In this document: one piece after another, positions 28,300 through 32,523 of the stretch
How the letters are laid out: every line of letters starts with the position of its first letter
Position numbering within the stretch: position 1 is the stretch's first letter
DNA from: Nitrospira sp.
GTDB lineage: Bacteria > Nitrospirota > Nitrospiria > Nitrospirales > Nitrospiraceae
DNA: 64,000 nucleotides
NCBI GenBank assembly: GCA_024998595.1
Contig: JACOEK010000003.1
Coordinates: 248,001 to 312,000, forward strand
Direction: 5' to 3'
Position numbers and translations under genes: made by a program
The notes under the pieces: model-generated
The model's input: only the letters and a program-made list of their open reading frames with translations
What the model was told of the DNA's origin: nothing
The model's database searches: none

Positions 28300-28731
28300 A
28301 TGCGTTACGCGCTCACATTGTTGTTGGTTTTGCTTACGGTCTGGGTCAGTACCGGCTGCAATACGCCCACCACCAGCCGGATCACGGGGGCCATCCGCTA
28401 TTTCAATATCCGCGCCGAAATCGCCCCGCGTCACTTGATCGCACAGATCGGCGATGAAATCCGGTGGCAAAACCTGAATTCGCACCCCGTCACATTACGG
28501 ATGCTTGAAGACAGCGACCCGGCGTTGCTCGCCTGCGACAAAGGATTCAAGCAATTCGGAGTCCTGCAGGACACGGTGACGATCGCGCCGTTACAATCCG
28601 TCAGCCTCTGCTTTTTGAAACCCGGTACCATCCGATTTAATGTCTGGCTCGACGCCGACAATCCTCAGGGCGCCATGACACCGACCGGCACCATCCGCGT
28701 CGAACCTTCGTCACCCCGACGCAATTCCTGA
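28300..28731 (+). CDS. Cupredoxin-like lipoprotein
   Basis: 143 residues. The lipobox is VSTGCNT. The mature protein has a beta-sandwich pattern with a typical cupredoxin-like start (IAQIGDEIRWQNLNSHPVTL), where His of NSHPV occupies a metal-ligand position, and a second Cys in SLCFLKPG. The complete type-1 copper ligand set is not evident, so copper binding is unproven. The 254-bp upstream spacer shows no gene. Confidence 0.7.
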   Translation: MRYALTLLLVLLTVWVSTGCNTPTTSRITGAIRYFNIRAEIAPRHLIAQIGDEIRWQNLNSHPVTLRMLEDSDPALLACDKGFKQFGVLQDTVTIAPLQSVSLCFLKPGTIRFNVWLDADNPQGAMTPTGTIRVEPSSPRRNS

Positions 28732-28848: not shown

Positions 28849-29277
28849 TCAGCAGGGAATATTGATGGCGGGATCGCAGAAGAGCGGCGGGATCACTGTC
28901 GGGCGCATGTAGCGTGCGGACGGATCTTGCGAGCCAGTGGAGCCAGTCAGCGCCGTTCCGCCGGTCATGCCGGGCAGGCCTTGACCGATTGTGCCGAACG
29001 ACTTCCCCTGGCTGGAGGGAATGGTGTTGCTTTGCGGGGCGCTGGCGCCCGACGCTGTCGATGAAATAGCCGACTGCTGCGCGAGAGGATTGGGAATCGG
29101 GATAGTTCCCGGAGCCTGCGGATTTTGTCCCGGCTGATTCTGTGAGTTTGACTGATTCGACGGGGGCGATATCATCTGCGCAGTCGCGAAGGCTGGCGTA
29201 AGAAACAGCCACGCGCAAAGGCCGGTGTTCATCACATACGTCTGAATCGACCACAATCCCCGCTCGTTCTGCCTCAC
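28849..29277 (-). CDS. Secreted Gln/Ser/Pro-rich hypothetical protein
   Basis: 142 residues from a GTG start with GAGGAGA six bases upstream. An export signal of about 35 residues (ending ATAQM) precedes a low-complexity segment rich in Ser, Gln, Asn and Pro (about 37-100), then two cysteines in the C-terminus (FCDPAINIPC). It follows the topoisomerase VI A subunit by 19 bases; no functional link can be read. Confidence 0.6.
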   Translation of the reverse strand: MRQNERGLWSIQTYVMNTGLCAWLFLTPAFATAQMISPPSNQSNSQNQPGQNPQAPGTIPIPNPLAQQSAISSTASGASAPQSNTIPSSQGKSFGTIGQGLPGMTGGTALTGSTGSQDPSARYMRPTVIPPLFCDPAINIPC

Positions 29278-29296: not shown

Positions 29297-30403
29297 CTAG
29301 TCGAGCCAATCCTTTTCCTTCAGCTTGCGCGGAAGATACTTCTTGGTTAGGTATTGGAAATCCTTATTGGCCAGCGCGTCCAATTCGTACTTGAGGCCGC
29401 TCGCGAGCATGCGTTTGATTTCCTGCTGCCAGGCCGGTTTTTGGAACCACTGATAGTTCAGCAGTTCCTTCGCTCGGGTAATGTCTTTTTCGTTCAGCTT
29501 GATGCCCACGTTGCGCGGCAACTCGTACCGCTCAGGATCCGCGCTGGACAACCCGATGAACTTCGCTTTGGGGATGGCCATGCGCTGGCTCTCGAACGCG
29601 AGATTGATCGAACCCTGCTTCACAACGGAGTAAATATAATATCCCCAAGGATCGTTATCGACCAAGACATAGACCGGCAACTTATGTTCTTCATGCAGGC
29701 GACGCGCCAAGCGCCGCACCCCGCGCGGCGGCTGACCGTTTCCCGTCAACAACACACAATTATATCGCCGCCAGAACTTATCCTCCGACAAGCGGTTCCA
29801 CTGCGTACCCTTTTCGACCAACAGCAGAAAGTCGGCCGTACAGCGTCGGATCTCCAGATATTCCGGCTCGACGATCGAGGGCACCGAATACCCGCCCTTG
29901 CCTAACTTGGCGCAATCCACCCGGTCGCCGTCATCGCCGAAGACCACCGGCCCGACGATGCTGCCGCTGTTTTCAGCCCGCACATGGAGTTCTTCACGCA
30001 AGGCCGTGAGCGACACTTCCAGATCCTCGATGATCGGATCGGATTCATCCTGCGTGTCGAACGTGTTCTCGTGCGAATCTTGAATCGTATGTTTGGTGCG
30101 ATAGTAGATTTCCCTCAACGAGGTCGTCAAATCAGCCTGCTGCAGTTCAGCCAGTGCGTCGGCCACCAGCATCGTCTGCATAAATTTCTTCGCCATGCCG
30201 ACGTTAAAGAACGTCCGAGCTTGTTTCTTCTCACCCATCTCGATCAATCCCTTACGGGGATTGAACGACACGTTCGACAACGCTCGAATCGGAATTTCAA
30301 ACGTCGGATCTTTGGATCGTTGCGCCGCAGAGATGACGACATCGGCCATGCCCACGAGCTTTTTCGCCACTACACCGTTCTTTTTCGGTTTCGCCTGTGC
30401 CAT
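29297..30403 (-). CDS. top6A: DNA topoisomerase VI subunit A
   Basis: 368 residues of the Spo11/Top6A family. The winged-helix (CAP) domain carries the catalytic tyrosine Tyr101 in LREIYYRT. The Toprim domain has Glu197 (LLVEKG) and the acidic pair Asp249/Asp251 (DNDPWGY). Together with subunit B the enzyme relaxes and decatenates DNA by double-strand cleavage with ATP. It is typical of archaea and plants and rare in bacteria. It starts eight bases after the B-subunit stop, so the genes form an operon in the order B then A. Confidence 0.95.
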   Translation of the reverse strand: MAQAKPKKNGVVAKKLVGMADVVISAAQRSKDPTFEIPIRALSNVSFNPRKGLIEMGEKKQARTFFNVGMAKKFMQTMLVADALAELQQADLTTSLREIYYRTKHTIQDSHENTFDTQDESDPIIEDLEVSLTALREELHVRAENSGSIVGPVVFGDDGDRVDCAKLGKGGYSVPSIVEPEYLEIRRCTADFLLLVEKGTQWNRLSEDKFWRRYNCVLLTGNGQPPRGVRRLARRLHEEHKLPVYVLVDNDPWGYYIYSVVKQGSINLAFESQRMAIPKAKFIGLSSADPERYELPRNVGIKLNEKDITRAKELLNYQWFQKPAWQQEIKRMLASGLKYELDALANKDFQYLTKKYLPRKLKEKDWLD

Positions 30404-30411
30404 ACGCTGTC

Positions 30412-32523
30412 CTATTTCCTTTTCCGAGTGGCGGGCGTCGTCTTGGATGGTTTCTTGCGAAGCGGCGCCTTCTTCCCGGCAGCCGGCTCGGCGAACAACT
30501 CCTGCTGCCCGGCTTTGCGCTTCTGACCCGGAGCAGGGCCAGTCTTTTTGGCTGCAGACACGGTCGCGGCCGCCCGCTTACCTTTCGTCGGAGCCTTCGC
30601 CTGGGGACCTGCCGCAGAAGGAGCTATTTCCCCCAGACTGGCCTCTGACACCGGAACCTGCTCAGCGACCTCAGTCTCTCCTTCAATGCCTTCCGCTGTG
30701 ACGATGATGGAATGGGGCAGACCTTCAGGACCGGCGCCGGTTTTCCCGAGCGCTTCATCCGTCTTGAGACCGCCCGTCCGTGAACTGGCGATCTTATGCA
30801 ACTGTTCTTTCAATTTTTCGATGGGAAGATTCCCGCCCTTCAAACGATTGCACGCGGCCACCACCTCTTCGATATATAGTTCGAAGATGTTACGCCGCCG
30901 GAATTCACTCGCGGCCCGTTCCCGCCTGCGCAGAAAAATTCCCAACCGCCGTCCGGCTTCACGCAGCGCCAGCGTAATTTCCTTCTGAATTTCATCGTAG
31001 TCTGCAATGGCTTCCTTCGACTCGCTGGTGAACGGGACCCAGACTGACGCCATGTGCACAAAGATCACCATCGGTCCGGCAGGCAACGCGCCTCGCGACT
31101 GGCTGACACCATAATTGCGCCAGGTGGTACTCAGTACGGCTTTGAAGGTCGCGCAGGCTGATTGTTGATAGAGCAAGGGCACGCGATTGGCGTACCGGAT
31201 CACCCGGGCCTGTTCGGTATCGTTGCCGTGGTCTTCGCCTTCCGCCAGGGGCACCGCTGCTTGCTGCGGCTTCGAGGCTTCTTCCGGCCCCTTCCCGAAT
31301 GCCAGTCCCGCTTCGATGACGAAGGGGTACCCACGGTAGACGGCCGGTGGCCGACTGACTGCCGTATAGAACTCGCCCTTGATCTGTTTGTACAGCCCCG
31401 AAAGAATCGCTTTTTCGCCGATCGGGGAAATGCAATTGGTCGGCGGCGCCATGATCTTGGTCGTCTGGATGGTTTTATAGAGCGTTTCCGCCGCGTGAGG
31501 CTTCACCTCGCGAGGTTTGGTATTGGGAGAGAGTTTCGCCGCTTTACAGATCTCATCGGCCAACGCGGGAGAGACACGGCAAAAATCGCTGGCGAGAAAC
31601 GATGCGATCGTGTGACTTTTCGTATCCTGGAGCATCTTGAGCAGGGCCCCGAATTCAATGCCGTACGGATGCGGCTTGATTTCCTTCGGCGAGGGCGGCA
31701 ACTCGTGATAGGTGCGAGGGTACTGTTTCTGCTCGCCTTCCGGCGTGTGATACGTCAACTGCACGTGCGGATTGGCAATCGACGTCTGCTCCAGCCATTC
31801 ATCCACCGACGCGCGCCCCTTCTGATAGCGCCCTTCGACTTCCAGCACCACCTCGGTCCCTTGGGGTTGCGCCCACTCGATCTGTTTATTCTCATGCACC
31901 AACGGTTCGTTTTTCTTCGTGTCGATTTGCACTTCGAAGTAGTGCGCCGCCGCCCGTGGTCCGGTGCGAGAAATCACTTTCACCGGCTTGCCGGTCGTGA
32001 GCTGGCCATACATCCCGGCCGCGGAAATGCCGATGCCCTGCTGTCCCCTGCTCATCCGCATGCGATGAAATTTGGAGCCGTACAACAATTTCGCAAACAC
32101 CCGGGGGATCTGCTGGCGTACAATGCCCGGGCCATTGTCGGTGACCGTGATGCGAAAACGGGTCGCCTGACTCGGCGCAACCGGCGACGGGCCATTCGCC
32201 ACCACTTCGAGCCTCACCGTTACGTCGGGCAGGATCCCCGCTTCCTCGCAGGCATCCAACGAATTATCGACCGCTTCCTTCACGCAGGTCAGCAACGCCT
32301 TCCTCGGATTGTCGAATCCCAGAAGATGCCGATTCTTCGTGAAGAACTCGGACACGGAAATCTCGCGCTGCCGCGCGCCCATTTCCACCGCCGTGACCGC
32401 GGGTGCGGATTTCTGTGCGGCGGCAGTCTTGTTTCGCGAGGCGGCCGATTCAGATTCGGTGGAGTCGGATGGAGGCGCGGGTATGGGAGACTCGGCACGT
32501 GGCGATGATGTCTTCGTGGCCAT
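30412..32523 (-). CDS. top6B: DNA topoisomerase VI subunit B with lysine-rich tail
   Basis: 703 residues of the GHKL ATPase Top6B family. The ATP site is complete: Asn87 in KEAVDNSLDA, the DNGPGI loop at 129-134, and the glycine loop RGQQGIGISA (159-168). H2TH and transducer domains follow. Residues before about 50 are Ser/Ala/Pro-rich. The last roughly 95 residues form a low-complexity tail rich in Lys, Ala and Pro with several KKxxxK clusters, resembling histone H1-like tails, beyond the usual end of the family. The tail may add DNA affinity; that is inference. Confidence 0.95.
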   Translation of the reverse strand: MATKTSSPRAESPIPAPPSDSTESESAASRNKTAAAQKSAPAVTAVEMGARQREISVSEFFTKNRHLLGFDNPRKALLTCVKEAVDNSLDACEEAGILPDVTVRLEVVANGPSPVAPSQATRFRITVTDNGPGIVRQQIPRVFAKLLYGSKFHRMRMSRGQQGIGISAAGMYGQLTTGKPVKVISRTGPRAAAHYFEVQIDTKKNEPLVHENKQIEWAQPQGTEVVLEVEGRYQKGRASVDEWLEQTSIANPHVQLTYHTPEGEQKQYPRTYHELPPSPKEIKPHPYGIEFGALLKMLQDTKSHTIASFLASDFCRVSPALADEICKAAKLSPNTKPREVKPHAAETLYKTIQTTKIMAPPTNCISPIGEKAILSGLYKQIKGEFYTAVSRPPAVYRGYPFVIEAGLAFGKGPEEASKPQQAAVPLAEGEDHGNDTEQARVIRYANRVPLLYQQSACATFKAVLSTTWRNYGVSQSRGALPAGPMVIFVHMASVWVPFTSESKEAIADYDEIQKEITLALREAGRRLGIFLRRRERAASEFRRRNIFELYIEEVVAACNRLKGGNLPIEKLKEQLHKIASSRTGGLKTDEALGKTGAGPEGLPHSIIVTAEGIEGETEVAEQVPVSEASLGEIAPSAAGPQAKAPTKGKRAAATVSAAKKTGPAPGQKRKAGQQELFAEPAAGKKAPLRKKPSKTTPATRKRK

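Follow-up and report, generated by a model that had tools for sequence, protein, structure and literature searches.

A topoisomerase VI operon of Nitrospira whose B subunit carries a predicted clamp-binding motif in a disordered tail

Results

The topoisomerase VI operon

The stretch of DNA analyzed in this study, henceforth the window, is made of 64,000 nucleotides from Nitrospira sp. (assembly GCA_024998595.1, contig JACOEK010000003.1, positions 248,001 to 312,000) and belongs to a genome of 4.23 Mb that is 99.4% complete. Judged by its sequence, the segment 29297-32523 of the reverse strand is an intact operon for topoisomerase VI (topo VI), a type IIB enzyme. Residue limits below refer to Top6B, and structural confidence is given as the predicted local distance difference test (pLDDT):

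30412..32523, (-): Top6B, topo VI B subunit, 703 amino acids (open reading frame, Pfam, solved-chain match, predicted model)
29297..30403, (-): Top6A, DNA-cleaving subunit, 368 amino acids, directly downstream of Top6B (open reading frame, Pfam, catalytic residues, neighbourhood)
32392..32523, (-): variable N-terminal extension, residues 1-44 (pLDDT < 50 at 1-38; conservation 0.44-0.57 for 1-40)
30904..32391, (-): conserved core, residues 45-540, with GHKL ATPase, putative H2TH-like helices and transducer (Pfam, solved-chain and fold alignment)
30676..30903, (-): stretch of helices and strands past the transducer, residues 541-616, also conserved (0.86-0.92; secondary structure to 615)
30415..30675, (-): basic tail, predicted disordered, residues 617-703 (pLDDT < 50; composition, charge)
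30493..30507, (-): predicted site of beta-clamp binding, QQELF at residues 673-677 (motif match, constraint, recurrence)

The two genes are separated by 8 bp. Top6B matches Topo-VIb_trans (PF09239, residues 360-540, E 2.5e-54) and HATPase_c (PF02518, residues 75-183), both above cut-off, and shows the GHKL features N87, DNGPG and RGQQGIG. The region between GHKL and transducer, the site of a putative H2TH domain, where the model has helices at 291-354 and only a sub-threshold NFACT_N match is found (269-354), aligns over its length to topo VI B of Methanosarcina mazei. The latter is also the closest solved chain (2q2e, 480.9 bits) and is retrieved by Foldseek with the predicted Top6B model (E 3.2e-47), the identity over the fold alignment being 43-44%. 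Top6A matches TOP6A-Spo11_Toprim (E 1.1e-60), TP6A_N and Topo_VI_alpha; PF21180, PF04406 and PF20768 are all above cut-off, and the catalytic tyrosine (Y101) and the Toprim acidic residues (E197, D249, D251) are present. An initial annotation of this DNA had already recognized the operon and held its catalytic residues to be intact; its coordinates and the residues named in it proved exact.

Distribution and inheritance of the operon

Top6B was found in 23 of 25 genomes of the genus, the window's own included; the two genomes that lack it are fragmented (88-89% complete). Counted with duplicates, 115 of 143 loci have Top6A adjacent to Top6B, downstream and in the same orientation; no Top6A was recognized within the available stretch in 17 of the remaining 28. 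In a Top6B tree built by a quick method, the window protein groups among named Nitrospira rows, and these rows sit inside a clade with Rokubacteria-like, Elusimicrobia and other rows from metagenome-assembled genomes (MAGs), apart from Phycisphaerae. Another Top6B of the genus (G015, locus L015) shares an identical core with a record of Nitrospira defluvii (L131). Tree placement and presence in 23 of 25 genomes of the genus fit vertical inheritance of the operon within the family rather than recent acquisition. For Nitrospira, topo VI is an ordinary, known enzyme. The view that topo VI is rare in bacteria, held by the initial annotation, needs qualifying, as PF09239 matches were detected in 44 of 198 genomes of the Nitrospirota draw, 91 of 199 of the Planctomycetota sample and 55 of 117 of the Myxococcota-phylum sample.

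Rows labelled Betaproteobacteria, Deltaproteobacteria and Rokubacteria (L116, L118, L119, L128 and L130) cluster in the Top6B tree, which suggests mislabelled MAGs or gene transfer. A look among plasmids for bacterial relatives gave five records, three of them annotated as haloarchaeal Top6B, and plasmids were rejected as such a source. The viral contigs yielded one Top6B locus, L062; a transketolase-like open reading frame, named by eye, adjoins topo VI there, and the locus is probably bacterial.

A disordered basic tail in Top6B

The AlphaFold model of Top6B is of moderate quality (mean pLDDT 66.5, predicted template modelling score 0.60, 26 sequences in the alignment) and has pLDDT below 50 at residues 1-38 and 617-703. 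Both ends thus agree with the initial annotation, which had described a disordered N-terminus and about 95 extra C-terminal residues rich in Lys, Ala and Pro: residues 609-703 include 20 Ala, 14 Lys and 10 Pro, and the last 43 residues (661-703) have a net charge of +11. The tail is shared by close relatives, as all 22 full-length Top6B of the genus (own included) extend past residue 616, by about 48 to 93 residues. Its sequence is poorly conserved: identity to the window protein per 20-residue block is 0.24-0.40 in 621-700 versus 0.73-0.96 in blocks 41-620, core blocks being mostly above 0.80 (26 rows that include two same-order genomes and the two halves of a split gene, with gaps depressing the values slightly).

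Two candidate identities were discarded. The tail is not a conserved domain, given the lack of a Pfam match, of confident structure and of conservation; nor is it the immunoglobulin-like C-terminal domain of gyrase-bearing archaea, as the predicted model contains none. A Pfam search of Top6B up to E 0.01 found neither an H1 globular domain nor an H1-like family. Hence, the description of the tail as “histone H1-like” holds for composition only. Binding of DNA by its basic stretches is plausible.

A predicted clamp-binding motif under constraint

Residues 673-677 of the tail read QQELF and match the motif Q-x-x-[LM]-F, found in proteins that bind the beta clamp, DnaN. The bacterial consensus is QL(S/D)LF, with much variation tolerated according to the portion examined of PMC9690074; the second residue of QQELF is Q where the consensus has L. 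The form QQ[EADT][LM]F occurs in 21 of 22 full-length Top6B of the genus, the exception being L023, and is also found in a gene split by the assembly (L026). In other Nitrospiraceae the second and third residues vary (QIALF, QTTLF, QARLF, QTMLF, QMGLF, QLTLF, QMPLF, QAELF), and several relatives read GQQALFGDE. A single occurrence is little evidence, because equal-length terminal stretches of 4 of the 50 other greedily called open reading frames of the window match as well. It is the recurrence of the motif and its constraint that count as evidence.

Codon comparison across the 21 motif-bearing genes of the genus showed that Q1, Q2 and F5 are the sole invariant residues among 22 codons examined. 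Their codons vary synonymously (CAG/CAA, TTC/TTT), position 4 is L or M through five different codons, and a Lys located 12 codons further on is retained in 19 genes. As these rows were picked for having the motif, the synonymous variation alone counts as independent evidence. The motif thus lies under constraint within an accessible, disordered terminus (pLDDT < 50), and the earlier proposal that the tail may control localization gains specific support from it.

The Lys, Ala and Pro content of the tail, its charge and the Lys-rich ends common among bacterial Top6B tails would also suit a basic, H1-like extension that binds DNA non-specifically, raising affinity or bridging DNA, with QxxLF as an incidental string. 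We consider this unlikely, since such an extension does not account for Q1, Q2 and F5 being the only invariant residues, for the rarity of the motif in composition-preserving shuffles, or for its presence at the opposite end of the protein in other phyla (see below).

The presumed partner of the motif is present. The genome has one DnaN gene, whose product aligns end to end with solved clamps. Its ImuB-like protein carries EQGELFDG, a regular-expression match with QGELF close to the C-terminus, and its DnaE carries GQTSIFGDE, detected by eye and outside the expression because position 4 is Ile. The DnaE sequence resembles the GQQALFGDE of the relatives' Top6B. We take both sequences to be the usual clamp-motif sites of those families. 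The genome also harbors a mutasome-type cassette (L144 and L146), in which a further DnaE-type polymerase adjoins the ImuB-like protein, a member of the Y family.

Recurrence of the motif across phyla

Core and extensions of each Top6B were delimited with a hidden Markov model, and matches were counted in the extensions for a five-residue form, Q..[LM]F, alone and together with a six-residue form, Q[LM].[LF].[LF]. The counts are as follows, with the mean and the maximum of shuffled sequences in brackets and N and C denoting the extension:

Nitrospirota: five-residue form 36/56 (0.36; 3); both forms 36/56, all C (0.54; 6)
Named multi-phylum set with L062: five-residue form 16/79 (0.55; 5); both forms 31/79, 16 N and 15 C (0.75; 4)
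Planctomycetota sample: five-residue form 21/81 (0.39; 3); both forms 22/81, 14 N and 8 C (0.63; 4)
Myxococcota-phylum sample, 30 best-scoring matches: five-residue form 8/29 (0.18; 3); both forms 8/29, all N (0.26; 3)
Archaea, 30 best-scoring matches with L060, L061 and L133: five-residue form 2/31 (0.24; 3); both forms 3/31 (0.42; 3)

These sets keep 275 of 284 loci with a match, nine cut or open-ended loci having been dropped; duplicates (L053-L056) and the pieces of the split G003 gene (L026 and L027) were left out of the counts. Because L133 enters two of the sets, the named one and the archaeal one, the sum over the sets is 276; among the archaea, L133 and L240 are one protein, so that 30 of the 31 cores there are distinct. 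The named set shares several genomes with the Nitrospirota set, and L161 and L270 repeat L138 and L141. The 91 matching Planctomycetota genomes gave 85 loci; fragments from G394, G287, G319, G365 and G389 were left out, and G241 is L124.

Phycisphaerae make up most of the named set, which owes much of its count to the six-residue form. Sequences of the Planctomycetota and Myxococcota were gathered only after that form had been reshaped.

Clustering of cores at 75% identity leaves the signal standing: with both forms, 10 of 25 clusters of the Nitrospirota and named sets have the motif versus 0.21 expected (maximum 3). In a decoy test (122 proteins, 15 dropped), the Q-first motif matched in 15 of 49 clusters, at 61 per 1000 Q residues, compared with 0-12 matches per 1000 residues for motifs starting with one of ten other residues; the reversed motif gave no match. 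The termini of Top6A, stretches shorter than those of Top6B, had the motif in none of 206 cases (duplicate loci included). Inside the core there were no matches in the Nitrospirota and named sets, seven among the 81 Planctomycetota and one among the 29 Myxococcota. None of those seven is among the 22 counted above. Four of them (L204, L217, L223, L225) lie, as we read them, within N-terminal extensions; the other three (L197, L207, L220) fall in conserved regions and were taken as chance.

Motif position and turnover

The location of the motif differs among lineages. Nitrospirota have it in the C-tail, while many Phycisphaerae have it in the N-extension (QLSLF, QLDLPF, QMTLGF, QLALAF and others). 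In some other Planctomycetota it lies among the first residues (MTSQTTLFGDD, MARQQSLFGDA), and in some it makes up the final ones (KQKELF, QLQMF). In the Myxococcota set, the N-extension has QLGLF in seven proteins and QGSLF in one. The limits of N-extensions are approximate because the start codon was chosen as the first Met within 130-140 residues. On a 275-row FastTree tree, with L204, L217, L223 and L225 assigned “N” by hand, 36 changes of motif state were counted, gains and losses pooled; hence, the motif has been gained and lost often.

One Phycisphaerales clade of 28 rows (L070, L073, L074, L076, L081-L083, L085-L092, L097-L099, L101-L107, L121, L124 and L127) shows a different pattern. 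All 28 have LF within their final 90 residues (2.58 on average in shuffles, 8 at most), often just ahead of the Lys-rich end, and Q..LF is present in only three. Perhaps this LF is a weakened or degenerate clamp motif. The prevalence of Q-less variants, and the ease with which short linear motifs are confused with one another, may also speak for a genuine docking motif whose partner is not DnaN. This seems to us quite unlikely, as the preference for Q over decoy residues and the likeness to sequences in the ImuB-like protein and DnaE of the window's own genome both point to DnaN.

In five Planctomycetota (L233-L237), the match to the transducer family is broken at a near-identical place, around profile position 53-60. 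The break is perhaps due to the helical bundle that the portion examined of PMC11302465 describes for Pirellula.

Several observations weigh against a clamp-binding role of the motif, and they can be grouped as follows:

(i). The motif is missing from 20 of 56 Nitrospirota Top6B, among them the five sequences (L029, L043, L046, L049, L147) that represent one genus, and from three of three Elusimicrobia rows and five of six Rokubacteria-like rows. Some motifs appear decayed (QLALL, QVALV, QTTFL).

(ii). The motif was noticed by eye before the regular expression was written, and the six-residue form was reshaped after Phycisphaerae sequences had been seen.

(iii). Shuffles ignore the kinship of the sequences. 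The matches in other open reading frames of the window, mentioned above, belong here too.

The reshaping of one pattern and the 4 matches among 50 other open reading frames of the window, together with the close relatedness of many sequences, would feed the suspicion that the resemblance arose by chance, or that common descent and loose patterns created it. We regard this as very improbable indeed: the five-residue form alone is far above shuffles in four sets, and the suspicion is also countered by the 75% identity clusters, by the absence of the motif from Top6A termini and by the number of state changes on the tree.

Gyrase and topoisomerase IV in genomes with topoisomerase VI

The genome of the window has one PF00521 gene, which contains a GyrA box; neither a second PF00521 gene nor topoisomerase IV (topo IV) was detected in it. 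Exactly one PF00521 gene is carried by 43 of the 44 Nitrospirota that possess Top6, and G204 has two. A family of the same order (f3) has two PF00521 genes and no Top6 in 10 of 10 genomes. Among 32 other genomes with Top6, one of them archaeal, 30 have one PF00521 match (a fragment in G236), G223 has none and G244 has two fragments.

Other counts tell against topo VI as a regular substitute, and slightly weaken the model proposed below. Five Nitrospiraceae (G098, G143, G156, G168 and G185), all 98-100% complete, carry a single PF00521 gene and lack Top6; in these genomes, as in most Nitrospirota of other classes, gyrase alone must apparently decatenate. In those other classes, by our count, 108 of 133 genomes have one PF00521 gene and none of the 133 has Top6, so that one such gene with no topo VI is the prevailing combination elsewhere in the phylum. 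Absence of a second PF00521 gene is therefore no sign that a genome requires topo VI. Replacement of topo IV by topo VI was discarded as a rule, since G204 has both and the genomes just mentioned have neither.

Neighbouring open reading frames

Directly after Top6A lies a 142-amino-acid open reading frame rich in Ser, Pro and Gln (28849-29277, reverse strand), with a signal-like start and no Pfam match. It is present in 14 loci, exclusively of Nitrospira-type rows. Further on, 28300-28731 of the forward strand encodes a 143-amino-acid lipoprotein-like product that resembles cupredoxins by eye and has no Pfam match.

Discussion

A proposed model for topoisomerase VI at the replication clamp

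Constraint on the motif within the genus and its recurrence at either end of Top6B in several phyla lead us to propose that bacterial topo VI is probably tethered to the replication clamp through Top6B, and unlinks newly replicated sisters there. Binding to DnaN, docking by two tails, recruitment and a role in decatenation are inferred steps, and they might be combined as follows. Gyrase is present in the genome and topo IV was not detected; the A2B2 type IIB enzyme would most likely act there as a decatenase. The flexible basic tail of Top6B would present QQELF to the hydrophobic cleft of DnaN, and the two tails of A2B2 could dock in the two hydrophobic clefts of the beta-clamp dimer, while the basic flanks of the motif would grip DNA non-specifically. 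Beta clamps that remain on newly replicated DNA would hold topo VI. Because its tails would be docked on those clamps, the enzyme would be concentrated behind the fork, where sister duplexes interwind and precatenanes form.

If correct, the model would place topo VI at the replication clamp and add a topoisomerase to the clients of the bacterial clamp; the motif would also suggest how topo VI may be guided to newly copied DNA. In addition, Top6B would provide a case of a short docking motif that has evolved repeatedly at opposite ends of one protein.

Archaea were initially considered a clean negative control, and were dropped as such. Their three motif matches in 31 proteins are within the shuffle range; however, in 11 of the 31 C-tails (L238-L267 with L060, L061 and L133) a sequence of KQTTL/QSTL type, Q[TSKQE][TKSE]L, lies close to the end, compared with a mean of 1.16 and a maximum of 6 in shuffles. 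This pattern was written after looking, and is a lead only. The archaeal sequence is, we presume, reminiscent of the PIP boxes that bind PCNA. One could then imagine that clamp tethering is general and repeatedly evolved in type IIB topoisomerases, with DnaN motifs gained independently at either end of Top6B in several bacterial phyla and PIP-like ones in archaeal Top6B tails, and that topo VI is as a rule directed to the clamp and not to an SMC complex. For this generalization the odds seem to us slightly less than even. The pull-down of Pyrococcus abyssi NucS, which recovered PCNA and two topo VI subunits according to the portion examined of PMC4929162, is indirectly compatible with a clamp association in archaea.

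Comparison with known systems

Topo VI in Nitrospira is already published. Allen and Maxwell (2024; PMC11302465, portion examined) list topo VI and gyrase as present, and topo IV as absent, in Nitrospira moscoviensis: the same enzyme, in the same family Nitrospiraceae, with the same state of gyrase and topo IV. Its main text does not contain the terms tail, disordered, lysine, DnaN, replisome or replication fork, and “clamp” refers there to the GHKL ATP gate only. The survey also mentions unpublished complementation of an Escherichia coli parE temperature-sensitive strain by the topo VI of M. mazei. Our literature searches, for which subscription papers, supplements and preprints were outside the scope, retrieved no report of tethering of topo VI to a clamp or of these tails; the clamp motif in the tail is thus unreported within the searches made. 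The initial annotation had considered vertical descent with known tails, and only the first half stood: the operon has descended within the genus and much of the family, and the literature searched holds no description of the tails.

The topo VI enzymes of M. mazei (2q2e, 9o0g) and Saccharolobus shibatae (2zbk) share with the Nitrospira enzyme the GHKL ATPase, the putative H2TH-like region, the transducer and the Tyr/Toprim A subunit. They differ at the C-terminus: M. mazei has an immunoglobulin-like domain and S. shibatae has none (PMC11302465, portion examined), whereas Nitrospira Top6B has a disordered basic tail with a match to the clamp motif. With the clamp-binding proteins of PMC9690074, whose consensus was given above, Nitrospira Top6B shares a Q-x-x-L/M-F sequence in a disordered terminus; in the portion examined, the table of clamp partners lists no bacterial topoisomerase.

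Two other systems offer functional parallels. In eukaryotes, the partners of PCNA include topo I and topo II alpha (PMC9690074, portion examined), an analogous case of a topoisomerase directed to a sliding clamp, although the topoisomerase class, the clamp and the motif are unrelated. In E. coli, topo IV acts behind the fork with SeqA and MukBEF (PMC11253446, PMC5061553, portions examined): a decatenase is likewise recruited behind the fork or to the chromosome, but both the enzyme and the recruiting partners are different.

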